Positions 27,873 to 34,822 of a stretch of 64,000 nt of DNA are shown here, piece by piece (within the stretch, counting starts at the first letter, position 1; every line of letters begins with the position of its first letter). The stretch comes from Limnobacter sp. 130. Lineage in GTDB: Bacteria > Pseudomonadota > Gammaproteobacteria > Burkholderiales > Burkholderiaceae_B. The stretch covers positions 62,001 to 126,000 of the forward strand of contig NZ_LR732331.1 in the NCBI RefSeq assembly GCF_902506325.1, read 5' to 3'. The notes beneath the pieces were generated by a model, which made no database searches, was not told the origin of the DNA, and saw only the letters and a program-made list of their open reading frames with translations. Position numbers and translations under genes: made by a program.

Positions 27873-28709
27873 ATGGTTCGCACTTGGAAGGCAGGTCGAT
27901 TCGAGCTTACATACACCCACGGCCAGCCCCTGATTATGGGTATTGTGAACGTGACGCCCGATTCTTTTTCCGATGGCGGCCGATACAACCAAACCAACCT
28001 GGCCATTGAACATGCCCGCCAACTGGTGGAGCAAGGCGCGCAGATTCTGGACATCGGTGGCGAGTCCACTCGACCTGGCGCAAAAGGCGTAGACGCGGAT
28101 GATGAATGGAAACGTGTGGAGGATGTGCTCAATGAGTTAATGGGCTGGAACGTGCCTTTGTCAATTGACACGATGAAAACCAAAGTGATGGCACGGGCTG
28201 TTGATTTGGGTGTGGATATTCTGAATGATGTGAACGGTTTTCGAGAAACAGGCGCAGAGGCAGTGCTTGCGCAATCCAATGCAGGCGCGGTTGTGATGCA
28301 CATGCAAGGCGAACCGCGCACCATGCAGAATTCACCGGAGTACGGCAATGTAGTCAGCGATGTGGAGGCATTTTTGAACAAGCGCTTGGTCGCGCTTGAA
28401 CAGCTGGGTGTAAACGCAAGCCGTATTTTGGTAGACCCTGGTTTTGGTTTTGGTAAAACACTTCAACACAATGTTGATTTGATGAAAGCGACCCCGTTGT
28501 TTTCCACGCTCGGGGCAGGGGTGCTGGTGGGCGTTTCGCGCAAGCGCATGATCGCTGAGCTCACCGGGCAAACCGACCCTGGCTTGCGCACGGCGGGTTC
28601 GGTGGCAGCCGCCACTTACGCCGCGCAACATGGCGCTGCTGTGTTGCGGGTTCATGATGTGCGCGAAACTGTGGAGGCATTGAAAGTGGCCTTCGCGTTG
28701 AACCAATAA
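27873..28709 (+). CDS. folP: Dihydropteroate synthase
   Basis: Joins p-aminobenzoate to dihydropterin pyrophosphate in folate synthesis; target of sulfonamides. The 278-residue TIM-barrel protein has both family signatures: IMGIVNVTPDSFSDGGRY near residue 24 and GAQILDIGGESTRPGA near 57. Later loops include SIDTMKTKV, DVNGF, and DPGFGFGKT. The stop codon overlaps the start of the next gene by one base, so folP is coupled to the glycosyltransferase gene rather than directly to glmM as in E. coli. Confidence 0.96.
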   Translation: MVRTWKAGRFELTYTHGQPLIMGIVNVTPDSFSDGGRYNQTNLAIEHARQLVEQGAQILDIGGESTRPGAKGVDADDEWKRVEDVLNELMGWNVPLSIDTMKTKVMARAVDLGVDILNDVNGFRETGAEAVLAQSNAGAVVMHMQGEPRTMQNSPEYGNVVSDVEAFLNKRLVALEQLGVNASRILVDPGFGFGKTLQHNVDLMKATPLFSTLGAGVLVGVSRKRMIAELTGQTDPGLRTAGSVAAATYAAQHGAAVLRVHDVRETVEALKVAFALNQ

Positions 28710-29695
28710 TGCAAGCCAACAGTTTGCAAAAGCTTCCGACAATTTTTGTGAGTGTGGCGGCGTACTGCGAGTCTCATCTTCAGCTGACCATTCACCATTT
28801 GTTTTCACAGGCGAAACACCCACAGCGGATTTTTGTGGGCCTGGTGGATCAGTCTGAGAATTTGAATCCGGATTGGTTGCAACAATTTCCTGCACGCAAA
28901 AATATCAACTATGTGGGATTGTCACCAATTGATTCGCGTGGGGTTAGCTGGGCGCGGTCTATCGCGTTCTCGCTGTACAACGATCAGGACTATTTGCTGC
29001 AAATTGATTCCCACACCTTGTTTGATCAAGGTTGGGATGAATTGTTGATTGAGCAGTTCAAGCAGCTAAAAAACTCCCATCCAAAGCCTTTGATCAGCAC
29101 CTACCCGCCGGGTTTCAGGTTTGATTCACAGGGCAGGGCAGTGGCGGATGAACCACTTAAATCGGACGAGATATTTTTTATTGATCGCGACCCTGCCAGT
29201 GCGCTGACCGCCGATCGGGCTGTGTTGCAGTTCCGGGTGGTTCGCAAACGGGTTGAACCGTCTGAGATTACCCACCTGCCAGGTTTTCATGTGGGGGCTT
29301 GTTTTTTGTTCACCACAGGCGACTTTACACAACAGGTGCCTTACGATCCTTACCTGTATTTTCGGGGCGAAGAACAAAGCCTTTCCCTGCGTGCGCATGC
29401 CAAGGGCTATCAGGTGTTTCATTCGCGGCACAATCTGATTCCGCTGTATCACCTGTACAAGGAAGTGGGCAAGGCGTATGAGGGGCAGCACTGGCACCCT
29501 GACATGGACGCCAAGCGCCACACGCCTTTTGGCTGGTTGCAACAACGTTCCAATGAAAGGATCAATGCCTTGTTCACGCCAGGGTCTGATTTGGGTGCTT
29601 ATGGCATTGACAGCCCGGCGCAACTTGAAAGCTTTTGTAAATTAAGCGGGATTGATTACCTGGGGCGCACCACAGTTCCCGTAAAATCAGATTGA
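28709..29695 (+). CDS. GlcNAc-type glycosyltransferase (PF11397-like)
   Basis: Protein of 328 residues resembling the GlcNAc glycosyltransferase family (PF11397), which includes the cytoplasmic Skp1 GlcNAc transferase of Dictyostelium. The N-terminus TIFVSVAAYCESHLQLTI starts a GT-A fold, and GVSWARSIAFSLYNDQDYLL followed by QIDSHTLFDQGWDE gives the Asp-x-His metal/nucleotide motif. No signal peptide or membrane helix is seen, so it is probably cytosolic. It is wedged between folP and glmM, which makes the UDP-GlcNAc precursor. The acceptor is unknown. A nearby Ser-Asp repeat protein is one candidate (see findings). Confidence 0.75.
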   Translation: MQANSLQKLPTIFVSVAAYCESHLQLTIHHLFSQAKHPQRIFVGLVDQSENLNPDWLQQFPARKNINYVGLSPIDSRGVSWARSIAFSLYNDQDYLLQIDSHTLFDQGWDELLIEQFKQLKNSHPKPLISTYPPGFRFDSQGRAVADEPLKSDEIFFIDRDPASALTADRAVLQFRVVRKRVEPSEITHLPGFHVGACFLFTTGDFTQQVPYDPYLYFRGEEQSLSLRAHAKGYQVFHSRHNLIPLYHLYKEVGKAYEGQHWHPDMDAKRHTPFGWLQQRSNERINALFTPGSDLGAYGIDSPAQLESFCKLSGIDYLGRTTVPVKSD

Positions 29696-29725
29696 TAAAC
29701 ATTATTCACCTATTGCAGACATTCA

Positions 29726-31078
29726 ATGAGCAGACAATATTTCGGTACCGATGGCATTCGCGGCACGGTGGGGCAAAGTCCCATGGTTCCTGACTTTGTG
29801 TTGCGTTTGGGGCAAGCCGCAGGCACGGTGCTGGCCAAATATGAGGGCGGTGGAAGGCGCCCGCAGGTGTTGATTGGCAAAGACACACGGGTGAGTGGGT
29901 ATTTGCTGGAAAGCTGCCTGGAGGCGGGCTTTACATCGGTTGGCGTGGATGTGGTTTTGGTGGGGCCCATGCCCACGGCAGGGGTGGCCTATTTGGCACG
30001 TGCTTTGAACATGTCGGCCGGTGTGGTCATTAGCGCTTCGCACAACCCTTACCAAGACAACGGCATCAAGTTTTTTTCAGGAGAGGGTACCAAGTTGCCC
30101 GATGCCTGGGAGATGGAAATTGAAGCGCAATTGGCCTTGAATGCACCGTGCAAGTCGTCTGAAGAGCTGGGTAAGGCCAAGCGCCTGAACGACGCAGCGG
30201 GTCGTTACCTTGAGTTTTGTAAAGGTACTTTTCCGCGCGACAAACATTTGCGTGGATTAAAAATTGTGGTGGATTGTGCCAACGGCGCAGCTTATCAAAT
30301 TGCACCCGCTGTGTTTCGTGAATTGGGTGCCGATGTGGTGGTGCTTGCAGACCAGCCAGATGGTTTGAATATTAACCGCGGCGTGGGTGCCACCTACCCC
30401 GACTTTGTGGCTCGAGCCGTGTTTGAACACAAGGCCGATTACGGTTTTGCGCTGGATGGCGATGCAGACAGGCTGATTTGTGTGGATGGCAGTGGCCGGA
30501 TTTACAACGGCGATGAACTGTTGTTTGCTTTGGTGGCCGAGCGTTTGCACATGCAGGGCAAGGTCGATGGTGTGGTGGGTACCTTGATGAGCAACCTGGG
30601 GCTAGAGCTTGCTTTGAAGCAACTGAATGTGGACTTTGAGCGTGCCAAGGTGGGCGATCGCTATGTGTTTGAGAAGTTGCAAGCCAATGGTTGGCAATTG
30701 GGCGGAGAAAGTTCAGGCCATTTGCTGGTGCTGGACCGTCATTCCACCGGCGACGGCATTGTGAGCGCCTTGCAAGTGTTGCGCGCTGTGCGCAATTTGG
30801 GCATGCCTTTGGCCGACATTTTGAAGCCGGTGGCCATGTTGCCGCAGGTGCTTAAAAATGCACGTTTGCCTGTGGGGTACGACTGGGCCAACGATATGAC
30901 AGTGCAGGGCGTTTGCGAGGCTGTGAAGGCTGAGCTTGGCAGCAATGGCCGTTTGTTGATTCGCCCTTCCGGCACCGAACCTGTGCTGCGCGTGATGGTT
31001 GAAACGGCCGATAAGCCCACCGCCAATCGCTTGGTTGATTCGATTTTGCAGGCTTTGCCCAAGGCGCCCCCGCAGTAA
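29726..31078 (+). CDS. glmM: Phosphoglucosamine mutase GlmM
   Basis: Converts glucosamine-6-phosphate to glucosamine-1-phosphate on the way to UDP-GlcNAc for peptidoglycan and LPS. The 450 residues contain the catalytic phosphoserine S105 in [13 protein letters not shown], the metal loop DGDADR, the sugar loop GGESSGH and the phosphate-binding loop [12 protein letters not shown]. Everything needed is present. The first 15 residues ([15 protein letters not shown]) match the family. It ends next to a convergent Ser-Asp repeat gene. Confidence 0.97.
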
Positions 31079-31090
31079 ATCGCGGGGGGC
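31066..31090 (+). terminator. GC-rich hairpin at the end of glmM
   Basis: GCCCCCGC and GCGGGGGC form an 8-bp stem around an 8-base loop that contains the glmM stop codon. No clean T-run follows, so it is a weak candidate terminator between convergent genes. Confidence 0.35.
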
Positions 31091-31131
31091 TTCGAGGCTT
31101 CTTTGAGTCTGTTGGTTGACGTTAGTCGAAG

Positions 31132-33627
31132 TTAGGCGGGGCTGAGCGTTTGAAGATGCTCGATGAAGGGTGTTGGACTTCCCCCCTCGATTGAAGACGA
31201 GATGGCAGCAGGTGTCCCGGCCAGAAAGCCCACTGGGTCAGGTCCGTCTCCGGAGTCGCCACCAACTGGAGCACCGCCGCCTTGCAATGAGGCCATGATT
31301 ACGCCGGGAGCACCTTCGAGTGTGCCCTGAACAAACTCAGGATTGCTCTGGTCGGGCGTGCCGCGCGCGTCGGTATAAGCCTCACCTTCTAAAATGGCTT
31401 GAATGCGTGGGGCCAATTCGTCGCTGCCACCTGGAGCCCGACTTGTAAAAAACGCTTGACCAGCTTCAGGTCCTCGTTCTTCTATTGAGGTGAGAAAAGC
31501 GTCTGTGCCTGCATTGTATTCAGTCACAAACAGGTTCAGGCCTTCATCCACGCCAGTGAATGCGCGTTCGACGCCTTCAATAAATGCGGAGGCAAAGGCT
31601 GCGTCTGCGGGCACCAAACCCTTCACCAGTGAAGGTGCTGGTCCTTCACCGCCGCCACCGCCGCCAGCGGCAGCAGCTACAACCTCAGCGGGAAAACTCA
31701 ACACGCCGTCTGCAATTGTCAGTACGTCGTTTTCGGTACCAATCACATCCATATTCGCAAATGCGTCATCGTCGCCAAAGCCATCATCGCCGTCGGGGCC
31801 GTTGACAAATTCGCCAAAATCCGTGGCCGGATCGTCACCATCATTTTCACCATCGACATTGCCCACGGCATCGGCTGCCAGGGAGGGTACGGCTTCGACC
31901 AGTTGGACTGCGACACCGGAAGTGTCGTCCATGATTTGACCTGCAAAGTTTTGAACAGCAAGACTGCCAGCGGCAAATCCGTCTTCCGGGCTACCACCGG
32001 TGGCTGGGTTACCAGCTTCAAAAGCGGCTTGCATGTCGCTTGCAAATTGTTGCTCGGGTGATTGCTCAACTGGATCGCCTTCATCGGGTGGGGGTGGCGC
32101 CGGTGCGTAACTCGCCGGGTCAATACCTTGCAGATTGCCAGCAATAACACCCGCAGCAGCAGCTGCGCGTGTGGCCAGGTTGTCGCCACCTGGGCCTTGA
32201 TTGATTCGGTCAAATACAACTGCAGTCATGTCTGTCTCCTTAGAATTATTAATAACAGCGAGTGTCACATCGGCGATTTGCCTTTGTGTGGTGGAGATGT
32301 CCCTAGAGACAATCCCCATTTCGTTGAGGGCAAATGTGCCCAAGGTCACCACCGAATTGGCGATGGCCGTGTCTGGTTCTTGTAGTGCTTGAACTATGGA
32401 TATCGGAGGAAGGCGACCGGTCTGAATCGTGTTTGCAGCAGCAAGGAGAAGGCTTTCTAGCCCTGCACCAATTGGTCCGGTAACAGGTGCCAGTTGCGGA
32501 ATTAGAACCGTCGGGATAAAAACTTGCCCTTCGGATGGCAAAGTTGCTTCTCCGGGCTGTACGTCAAAGCGCATTGGCGTGCCGCCAGCGTTGATTGCAA
32601 GATTGTCGATTGACGTACCAAGTGCGATTCGCAGACCGTCTTCACTGAAGGTGCTTCGAAAGGCACTTGCTGTATTTTGCAGCGACTGTGCGACGTTGCT
32701 ACGGGTAATATCCACCGTGGCCTGTTGAACTTCAAGAGTGCTACCCAAGTTCACAGAGGCATTGCTCAGTAGAAGGCCTTCTTCACCCGTTTGTGATGAA
32801 TCCGGAAGATCGACAGAACTTTCATCTATATTTGCAACGTCGCTTTGAACTGATGGTGCAGAGGCCTCGTTCAGAATATTCACGTCTTGAACTGACAATA
32901 CGGGTTGTTGTCCGCCCGCAAAAATTTGAATTTTTGGATCAAGCACCGTAACCGACGAGTTTTCAGGGTCGTCTTGGTGTATTTCGACGCTTAAGGCTTC
33001 TACGTTTTGGAGTTGTAGCAGTTGAATGCCCAGTGGCGCGACTGTCAGTTGATCCGCGCTTAACAACATCGGAAGCGTGATGTTGTCGGAATCACTGTCG
33101 GAATCGCTGTCGGAGTCGCTGTCAGAGTCGCTGTCAGAGTCGCTGTCGGAGTCGCTGTCGGAGTCGCTGTCGGAGTCGCTGTCGGAGTCGCTGTCGGAGT
33201 CGCTGTCGGAGTCGCTGTCAGAGTCGCTGTCAGAGTCGCTGTCAGAGTCGCTGTCGGAATCGCTGTCGGAGTCATCGCTTGGTGTCACAGCACTGCTCGA
33301 ACCACCCGCAATTACTCCCAGAGTGACAGCCCCTCCAGCGAGCGAACCAAATCCAGCCAAACCCAACTCGGCGCCGAATAAACCTGCCAGTTTCTCAGTC
33401 TCTTCGTCGGTATCCTTTTCGAGCAAAACGCCCTGCTCAATTTGTTCTGTCTCGTTTTCTTGTTCTACCTGCGATAAATCAGCTTGCTTTGGCGATACAA
33501 GGACTGGCTTTTCATGACCGGTAAGTGATTGCGCATTGTCAGTATTGCTCAAGACGATAGGCGCATCTCCAGCAAGTGGCGCCGACATAGATCGCTTTGT
33601 ACCCTCTGATTCGGTGTGCTCGGTCAT
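31132..33627 (-). CDS. Ser-Asp dipeptide repeat protein, acidic, possibly surface-associated
   Basis: I do not recognise a family for this 831-residue protein. It is strongly acidic. Residues 1-80 are hydrophilic; 82-113 form a Gly/Ala-rich hydrophobic segment ([20 protein letters not shown] onward); about 118-181 are an uninterrupted Ser-Asp tract of roughly 30 dipeptides. The following 250 residues look beta-rich with alternating hydrophobics. The last 350 have weakly repeating modules rich in FAxxF and G-G-S/D turns plus an Asp/Gly-rich linker ([16 protein letters not shown]). There is no classical signal peptide and no RTX nonapeptides, LPXTG or autotransporter barrel. Layout recalls large adhesins with a Gly-rich hydrophobic segment followed by a stalk. 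Function is unknown. Confidence 0.7.
33085..33264 (-). repeat. 12-bp tandem repeat encoding Ser-Asp
   Basis: Fifteen consecutive 12-bp units, plus strand GTCGGAGTCGCT with changes only at two positions, followed by one degenerate unit. On the coding strand each unit gives Asp-Ser-Asp-Ser with alternating AGC and TCC serine codons. Gain or loss of units keeps the reading frame, so slippage would change stalk length, not switch the gene off. Confidence 0.95.
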
Positions 33628-33934
33628 TTGGCAGACGGGACTTGTTGTTGTCCAACTGCTACTTGCGCTGATTTGAGGTGGATTTTATTTGGAATTCTGG
33701 ATTTAACAAATATTACGGAGAATTTTTATTTTTCTTTTTTCTTTTTTTGAAAAATAAATATATAAAACATATTGTTATGAAATTTATTAAGAAAAGAGTG
33801 TGATGTCTTGAAGGGTTTTACGTAGAATATTTATTAAAATTTATTTGACAATTTAATGTAATGTTCTAATTTAATACCAACGTAAATTAAAAGAAAACGC
33901 TCAGAAAGAAGTAGGCATTAATCCCAGTGTCTTT
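33628..33934. other. AT-rich intergenic region upstream of the Ser-Asp repeat gene
   Basis: About 300 bp between the FkbM-like gene and the Ser-Asp gene with no coding potential. From about 33680 to 33900 it is far more AT-rich than the rest of the window, with long T- and A-runs. It must hold the promoter of the Ser-Asp gene, though several AT-rich -10-like sequences prevent choosing one. Such composition would favour nucleoid-protein silencing and suggests acquired DNA. Confidence 0.6.
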
Positions 33935-34822
33935 TTACGGTTGATGTGTATGATTTGTTACCACGGGCAGAGTGATCCAGCTGCAAACCCGCAAGTCTTT
34001 CACAGAGCGTTGCAGGTAGCGGCCCTGCCGAACTTCGTACCGACCATATTGAAAGGTGACGCCGGCAGCTTGTTGTTGACGGGCGTAGCCGAGCGCTGAA
34101 TCCAGATTGTTCTCGTGGGGCAGGTTTAGCGGTGAGTAGTTTTTCGGGTAACCCTCGAGGTAATACCCTTTCGCAGTTTGAATGATAGTGCGCTCACCTT
34201 TCAGCCGGTTCAGGTTCAGGCGAAGATGCGTGTCGCTGGCGCCGCCGCCTGTTTGACAGGACACGATGTCGTAGCCCATCAAAATCAGCTTTGCAATTAG
34301 CCGATGAATCATTTCGCTGTCGGACAATTTATTCGATTCAAAAATGATTTGATGAGGCCATTGCCCGGGTTTTGCATCACTGAAAAAATCGTTCAGTATC
34401 ACTGCGTCATGTCCCTCGGTGTCGACCTTGAGCATGAATACGCCGTGAACTTCGTGCTGTTGAAAAATGGTTTGCAGCCGAAGGCAGGGTACAGCCTGAA
34501 TCACCAGAACATCTTGTTGAGCCAGGCCAGTCTTTGCGAGGTGTTTTTCAACAGTTGGGTGAGGTGCGCCGATTGAATTGCAGCCGCGAAGCCAGTTGGG
34601 CAGTTTGTGTTTCGCCAGCATTTGAGGTGGTATGAAATAGACATTCACCGTACCTTCCACATTGGAGATGGCTGCGTTGATTTTTTTACAGCCCGGGCGG
34701 TTAGGCAAGCGATCAATGTAAAGTGATATGGGATCGATCGACAGGCCACGCGTGTCCGGCCCAGCAGCCTGAATCAGGGTGTTGAAGTCGGAGGTGCCAA
34801 TTTCAATGAAGTCCAGGAACAT
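33935..34822 (-). CDS. FkbM family SAM-dependent methyltransferase
   Basis: Putative O-methyltransferase of 295 residues, probably acting on a sugar or other small-molecule hydroxyl. The SAM-binding start is FLDFIEIGTSDFNTLIQ (motif I with GTSDF in place of GANxG), and the FkbM hallmark LKVDTEGHDAVIL lies near residue 132. The last 90 residues are a less typical extension. It faces the same way as the Ser-Asp gene 307 bp downstream and diverges from the metalloprotease gene. I see no clear ribosome binding site before the ATG at 34822, and the true start could be shifted. Substrate unknown. Confidence 0.78.
   Translation of the reverse strand: MFLDFIEIGTSDFNTLIQAAGPDTRGLSIDPISLYIDRLPNRPGCKKINAAISNVEGTVNVYFIPPQMLAKHKLPNWLRGCNSIGAPHPTVEKHLAKTGLAQQDVLVIQAVPCLRLQTIFQQHEVHGVFMLKVDTEGHDAVILNDFFSDAKPGQWPHQIIFESNKLSDSEMIHRLIAKLILMGYDIVSCQTGGGASDTHLRLNLNRLKGERTIIQTAKGYYLEGYPKNYSPLNLPHENNLDSALGYARQQQAAGVTFQYGRYEVRQGRYLQRSVKDLRVCSWITLPVVTNHTHQP

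Follow-up and report, generated by a model that had tools for sequence, protein, structure and literature searches.

The question raised by this locus is what a bacterial glycosyltransferase of family GT60 (PF11397), encoded between folP and glmM, adds its sugar to. The gene lies in a stretch of 64,000 nucleotides from Limnobacter sp. 130 (contig NZ_LR732331.1, positions 62,001 to 126,000), which is called the window hereafter and belongs to a genome of 3.28 Mb. The initial annotation had proposed that the transferase, glmM, an adjacent Ser-Asp repeat protein and an FkbM-type methyltransferase form a system that glycosylates Ser-Asp stalks. On the basis of comparisons within Limnobacter and beyond it, we consider it an even chance that the enzyme is a cytosolic polypeptide N-acetylhexosamine (HexNAc) transferase that modifies an exported surface protein, the sugar possibly carrying a methyl cap.

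A GT60 transferase in the folP-glmM junction

The open reading frame (ORF) at 28709-29695 matches the PF11397 profile at 1.3e-46, with 160.1 bits against a curated cut-off of 21, which confirms the transferase at the position first assigned to it. DxD is replaced by DxH, as is stated for the GT60 family (PMC7185993), and D100 and H102 were invariant both in an alignment of 44 sequences (43 of 55 collected GT60 proteins plus that of the window) and in one of 39 sequences. The AlphaFold2 model (mean predicted local distance difference test score of 90.2) has a GT-A fold, and its nearest matches were the GT27 polypeptide GalNAc-transferases, so that it is built like enzymes which put sugars on animal proteins. 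Because of this fold, the enzyme looks like a protein glycosyltransferase, in agreement with the protein-modifying role suggested at the outset. A sequence search against the PDB gave nothing useful (best E 0.65). The ratio of nonsynonymous to synonymous substitution (dN/dS) was 0.08-0.12, that is, the gene is under purifying selection.

Known GT60 enzymes include Skp1 GnT1 of Dictyostelium and the mucin-type N-acetylglucosamine (GlcNAc) transferases of protists; we found no description of a bacterial GT60 acceptor in open-licence papers on bacterial GT60, Skp1-like bacterial pathways, glycosylation of adhesins linked to secretion, or FkbM with adhesins. The window enzyme resembles CAZy GT60/PF11397 in its profile match far over the cut-off, its DxH motif and its GT-A fold, whereas it differs from the eukaryotic members in being bacterial, in its chromosomal folP-glmM slot and in having an FkbM-type neighbour in some strains. 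Compared with CAZy GT27, it shows about 15% identity in structural alignments and consists of 328 aa without a further domain.

The gene order on the + strand is ftsJ and ftsH (presumably, for these two names), folP, GT60 and glmM. These are followed on the - strand, convergent to glmM, by the genes for the Ser-Asp protein and the FkbM-type enzyme, and the last gene of the string, again on the + strand, encodes a putative metalloprotease of the MXAN_6640 type (58 bits, under the NCBIfam cut-off of 140). The features are as follows:

27873..28709, + strand: folP, dihydropteroate synthase (PF00809, 4e-81); its final base is shared with the GT60 start codon
28709..29695, + strand: GT60 (PF11397) glycosyltransferase, 328 aa (1.3e-46), DxH being D100-S101-H102
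29726..31078, + strand: glmM, phosphoglucosamine mutase, a housekeeping gene (PGM_PMM domains I-IV)
31132..33627, - strand: Ser-Asp repeat protein, 831 aa, convergent to glmM (ORF; homolog in two of 16 genus genomes)
33085..33279, - strand: Ser-Asp tract of 65 residues with 32 SD, 12-bp DNA unit (tandem-repeat finder and translation)
33292..33390, - strand: Gly-rich hydrophobic segment directly before the tract, about residues 80-112 by eye (translation)
33935..34822, - strand: FkbM-type methyltransferase, 295 aa (PF05050, 6.9e-8), adjoining glmM in relatives without the Ser-Asp gene

Since the folP stop and the GT60 ATG overlap by one base (TAATG) and the spacing to the glmM start is 30 bp, folP, GT60 and glmM probably form a single transcript. 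The suggestion that glmM supplies UDP-GlcNAc for the sugar pathway did not hold: in G004 folP and glmM adjoin without GT60, so that their adjacency is no evidence for such a pathway, and we reject glmM as a dedicated supplier.

Distribution of the transferase and the Ser-Asp gene in Limnobacter

We compared 16 Limnobacter genomes (G-numbers; loci are given as L-numbers). Six relative loci carried transferases 79-90% identical to that of the window, the four of these named Limnobacter being 85-90% identical. A transferase match was present in 13 of the 16 genomes; in 11 it occupied the folP-glmM junction (the window's own plus the ten loci L010-L019), and in G004 and G015 it lay elsewhere. Two of the three genomes lacking a match (G002 and G011) are incomplete assemblies.

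The Ser-Asp protein, with the part C-terminal to the tract as query, had a homolog in only two of the 16 genomes, G000 and G008, which are non-sisters in the GT60 tree (a quick tree, midpoint-rooted for drawing, that omits L165 and L169-L172 and holds 37 of 80 viral loci). In five of the six relative loci (L003-L007) glmM and fkbM are adjacent without any Ser-Asp gene between them; the sixth, L008, ends soon past glmM. Elsewhere the slot after glmM holds an Asp-rich repeat protein of 1186 aa (G003), a repeat or surface-like protein cut by the contig end (G009), a protein of 588 aa whose repeats look ankyrin-like by eye and which is not an adhesin (G007), or small proteins and no adhesin (G010). 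By these counts (two genomes versus 11) and loci, the transferase is nearly constant and the Ser-Asp gene occurs only patchily beside it; we reject the latter's membership in a conserved operon. The features first described are all real in the window, but their combination does not carry over to the genus beyond this genome.

Ser-Asp tracts were found somewhere in six of the 11 genomes that carry GT60 in the folP-glmM slot. For the other five, a profile search and reading of its loci revealed no run of at least five Ser-Asp dipeptides: the tracts are (DA)n in G007, G009 and G010 and Asn-Thr (NT)-rich in G003, and the fragmented assembly of G013 had no profile match. The transferase therefore occurs at folP-glmM in a good part of the genus where no Ser-Asp protein was found, and neither the co-occurrence nor the tract as acceptor is supported; as judged from sequence, glycosylation of a Ser-Asp stalk does not survive the within-genus comparison. 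SdgA and SdgB are the staphylococcal transferases for Sdr proteins and ClfA (PMC3794999, PMC8561734). The window shares with that system the closeness of a sugar-transferase gene to one for a Ser-Asp repeat protein; according to the initial annotation the enzyme family is another, and in Limnobacter neither the pairing nor the tract letter is conserved.

GT60 neighbourhoods outside Limnobacter

We examined 42 GT60 places outside the genus, including eight plasmids and one phage, within a radius of 6 kb. Five further places were unscored: G547, G503:C221 and G790 (weak or at a contig end; the local profile found no GT60 in G790) and two from Stenotrophomonas phages. An HlyD-type gene was present at 12 of the 42, an adhesin, fimbrial or RTX gene at eight, and either at 19, whereas HlyD-type or adhesin features appeared in none of 40 control regions from 11 of the same genomes. 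For example, a Phyllobacterium plasmid encodes a 2198-aa RTX protein and type I secretion genes near GT60, and in G219 the transferase is flanked by a LapA-domain protein (3106 aa) on one side and an RTX/Calx-beta protein (1513 aa) on the other. In three fresh places from the genus of G219, GT60 directly followed a LapA-like giant adhesin gene in all three and also preceded a retention-module gene in two; GT60 occurs in four of 63 genomes of that order, G219 included. HlyD-GT60-ABC strings were seen in one genus and some relatives, and the weak fusion of GT60 with a 2-oxoglutarate (2OG) oxygenase-type domain in G432 is adjoined by two RTX-type proteins. A MrkD-like fimbrial adhesin gene lies directly upstream of GT60 on three Burkholderiaceae plasmids and in G456 (domains for one, the rest by similarity). 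This MrkD-like to GT60 order is found in L129, L162, L163 and L166, and L129, L163 and (by eye) L166 are beside or inside type VI secretion clusters.

GT60 genes were also frequent in IMG/VR, at least 575 of 600 candidate stretches being confirmed. From 71 of 80 viral loci (L194-L273) we tallied the products of the next genes, 109 proteins between 120 and 1500 aa long. On the basis of the 25 commonest families per library, these were DNA polymerase, terminase and similar proteins, with PF13640 in four of the 109. Among the nine viral loci without a row, GT60 lay between structural-looking genes by eye in five, all of one phage group (L203, L204, L205, L208 and L212); in L204 and L205 it precedes a protein of about 1650 aa, above the length limit of the tally. 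The local FkbM profile matched in three of the 80 viral loci.

Several points weigh against an exported surface protein as acceptor. The list of scored features was fixed after the loci had been read, and the controls were placed by hand, on longer contigs and never on a plasmid. The loci are not independent, many coming from the same genera; by hand count, 12 of 22 genera were positive. One of the eight adhesin calls, L167, has a tail-fibre-type Peptidase_S74 domain, and 23 of the 42 places showed no scored feature at all. In the quick tree, with its midpoint root, most adhesin-linked GT60s fall in the other half from the Limnobacter clade, and G251 (L115), among the nearest relatives outside the genus, has no scored feature nearby. 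LapB-type type I secretion was not evident in the window's own genome (highest score 453 bits, cut-off 693). The 25 commonest families of the 109 viral neighbours included no adhesin or fibre family.

Methyltransferase and hydroxylase partners

The FkbM-type gene was correctly placed upstream of the Ser-Asp gene by the initial annotation, and its product reaches the Pfam cut-off (PF05050, 33.2 bits against 22.7); the NCBIfam FkbM cut-off is not reached (TIGR01444, 23.5 against 37.7). A close ortholog was found in six of the 16 genomes, all six among the 11 with GT60 at folP-glmM. In G004, GT60 and a C-terminal FkbM domain are fused in a single protein of 562 aa (PF11397 6.8e-45, PF05050 5e-8). 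This fusion is sister to the Limnobacter core clade in the quick tree (support 97); its gene lies in a string with tamB, tamA and a GT41 gene and faces a Thr-Gly (TG)-rich protein. Other members of the phylum carry a different methyltransferase domain on GT60, Methyltransf_25 in 15 of the 44 sequences and Methyltransf_23 in 13, the two sets overlapping, and the consensus of 30 long C-terminal GT60 tails holds DAGCGD.

Direct BLASTP between the window FkbM protein and the FkbM part of L068 gave a weak match (24% over 62 residues, E 0.058), so the fused domain is no close relative of the window's; the local FkbM profile is not independent for L068, which was in its training set. Based on the GT60-FkbM fusion, the 15 of 44 proteins with the other family and the fkbM orthologs confined to genomes with the GT60 slot, the proposed functional tie between transferase and methyltransferase is plausible, though the support is indirect.

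In the Skp1 pathway a hydroxylase acts first and GT60 follows. One clear and one weak oxygenase fusion are reminiscent of this order: an 875-aa triple fusion of 2OG-oxygenase (PF13640, 2.5e-14), GT60 and a tubulin-tyrosine-ligase-like (TTL) domain in G731 (L190:8048-10672), and a weak C-terminal 2OG match on the GT60 of G432 (24.6 bits, cut-off 27). In G015, too, GT60 has a 2OG-oxygenase gene at a distance of about 2 kb. PF13640 genes are present in all 16 genus genomes, including those without GT60. In the incomplete genome G002, which has no GT60 match, a 2OG gene stands convergent and overlapping beside folP (L077:30-2016), in the slot of GT60 in other species; this gene (L101) and the oxygenase portion of the L190 fusion match each other at 1.4e-67.

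Repeat proteins, tract letters and GT41

The tract of the window occupies residues 117-181 of the 831-aa protein, and its 65 Ser/Asp residues include 32 SD, which bears out the roughly 30 dipeptides first reported. The DNA underneath is a tandem array of a 12-bp unit (15.8 copies, 95% matches); since this regular array was the only one the finder reported in the window, the tract is not a chance product. The protein gave no Pfam match up to E 0.1. On the opposite strand, 33077-33517 is likewise open and reads as Ser-Glu-Ser-Leu repeats, which follows mechanically from the 12-bp unit.

Many proteins across the genus combine an N-terminal module, a Gly-rich segment and then a dipeptide tract, and the Gly-rich segment before the window tract gives it a similar layout. 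At the tamA-tamB locus (both genes named by eye) the tracts are (SD)51 in G000, (SD)57 in G006, (DA)130 in G007, (DA)69 in G010, NT-rich in G003 and TG-rich in G004, with a longest exact run of 27. Proteins grouped with these by sequence likeness and not by locus have (SD)59 in G012, 56 in G008, 40 in G005 and at least 27 in G001. Further (DA)n tracts occur in G009, as (DA)28, at several places in G015 and in extra proteins of G006 and G010; L057, one more match in G009, is a short frame rich in Ser and Asp in which five dipeptides never follow one another. In G007, G009 and G010, which carry GT60 at folP-glmM, the (DA)n tracts are hydroxyl-free. As read from these sequences, the conserved property of the tracts is regular spacing and, mostly, acidity rather than serine.

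The genus repeat proteins show weak similarity to the N-terminal module of adhesins beside GT60 (L114, L321 and L322; hhalign E 1.6e-4, probability 50%), and so to the retention module of LapA-type giant adhesins, whereas the window protein, by eye, keeps only the Gly-rich segment and the tract, without the module. An SD- or DA-tract protein is encoded next to, and divergently from, the tamA-tamB-like genes in G000, G006, G007 and G010 (L072:8210-16853, L121, L122 and L125), and a link of the TAM (translocation and assembly module) genes to repeat-protein export is conceivable. A 1024-aa protein with Mur-ligase and glutamate-ligase domains (PF08245, 4e-33) follows tamB at L122:458-3532; it has relatives in G000 and G006, and G004 has the GT60-FkbM fusion in the same slot.

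GT41 (OGT-like) genes exceed the cut-off in two of the 16 genomes, G003 and G004, in each immediately next to a divergent gene for a threonine-tract repeat protein (L117:6820-10925 and L123:1481-6133). These are the two genomes with a threonine tract at that locus (NT-rich and TG-rich, respectively). The eight genomes with (SD)n or (DA)n tracts, G000, G006, G007, G010, G012, G008, G005 and G001, gave no GT41 match; eight versus two genomes is a small comparison, uncorrected for relatedness. G009 has a GT41-like match under the cut-off (20.9 against 25 bits), in a string with type I secretion-like genes and on another contig than its repeat protein.

Candidate acceptors

We propose that the product of the gene at 28709-29695 would be a cytosolic, metal-dependent GT60 polypeptide HexNAc-transferase, expressed with folP and glmM, that adds one sugar, probably GlcNAc, to hydroxyl side chains of a protein. 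The acceptor would most likely be an exported surface protein, modified before export, and not specifically the neighbouring Ser-Asp tract. The adjacent FkbM enzyme, in strains having it, may O-methylate the sugar. The observations behind this proposal are the family, the fold class, DxH, purifying selection, wide presence in the genus, the GT60-methyltransferase fusion in the same genus and the excess of adhesin and type I secretion genes near distant GT60 genes over controls. From them we infer the shared transcript, the cytosolic location, the donor sugar, the polypeptide nature and surface location of the acceptor, and the methylation of the sugar. An exported surface protein is our leading guess for the acceptor, and a cytosolic protein is the main rival.

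If GT60 modified a cytosolic protein unrelated to surface proteins, perhaps after prolyl hydroxylation, it would resemble Skp1 GnT1, which acts on a cytosolic protein in Dictyostelium and Toxoplasma. The housekeeping gene string around it, the G731 and G432 fusions and the 2OG gene near the G015 copy are in line with this. However, no 2OG-oxygenase gene adjoins GT60 at folP-glmM in the five neighbourhoods read (G000, G003, G007, G008 and G010), PF13640 is present in every genus genome with or without GT60, the local 2OG profile matched in five of the 80 viral loci, and the RTX-type proteins beside the G432 fusion point to secretion; we regard a cytosolic acceptor as unlikely, although worth keeping in mind. 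Many GT-A enzymes with a similar core act on lipid-linked or surface polysaccharide, and the G015 copy, which lies by eye among polysaccharide-type genes, is a further point against a protein acceptor. Yet the fold is clearly nearest to polypeptide transferases, and none of the genes of such a pathway were seen beside the folP-glmM copies of the same five genomes, which makes a lipid or polysaccharide acceptor rather improbable.

A Gram-negative analogue of SdgA/SdgB, with GT60 glycosylating the neighbouring tract and FkbM methylating the sugar, would have some 32 regularly spaced serines at its disposal. The genes do adjoin in G000 and G008, Ser-Asp tracts exist in six of the 11 slot genomes, and GT27 and GT60 are said to have polypeptide Ser/Thr O-glycosylation in common (PMC7185993). 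Nevertheless, the rarity of the Ser-Asp gene beside the transferase, its absence between glmM and fkbM in L003-L007, and the (DA)n tracts of G007 and G010 (tamAB-linked) and of G009, all with GT60 at folP-glmM, make this analogue very improbable.

Returning to the exported surface protein, a wider reading would see in bacterial GT60 a system that O-glycosylates secreted adhesins while they are still in the cytosol, works with methyl-capping domains and in certain lineages with a prolyl-type hydroxylase, and gave rise to the eukaryotic Skp1 pathway; in Limnobacter, GT60 would serve an exported protein and GT41 would separately pair with threonine tracts, tract letter and enzyme changing together. 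We hold this only tentatively and think it unlikely to be correct as a whole. If true, the GT60 branch would gain a bacterial role: adhesins would be coated before they are exported, receive methyl caps and in some cases be hydroxylated first. The eukaryotic Skp1 and mucin-type enzymes would then be linked to a pathway for bacterial surface proteins. Limnobacter, with its naturally varying tract letters, is a ready comparison set. The window enzyme, whose distant relatives often adjoin large surface adhesins, may thus be part of a little-studied sugar-coating of secreted proteins.

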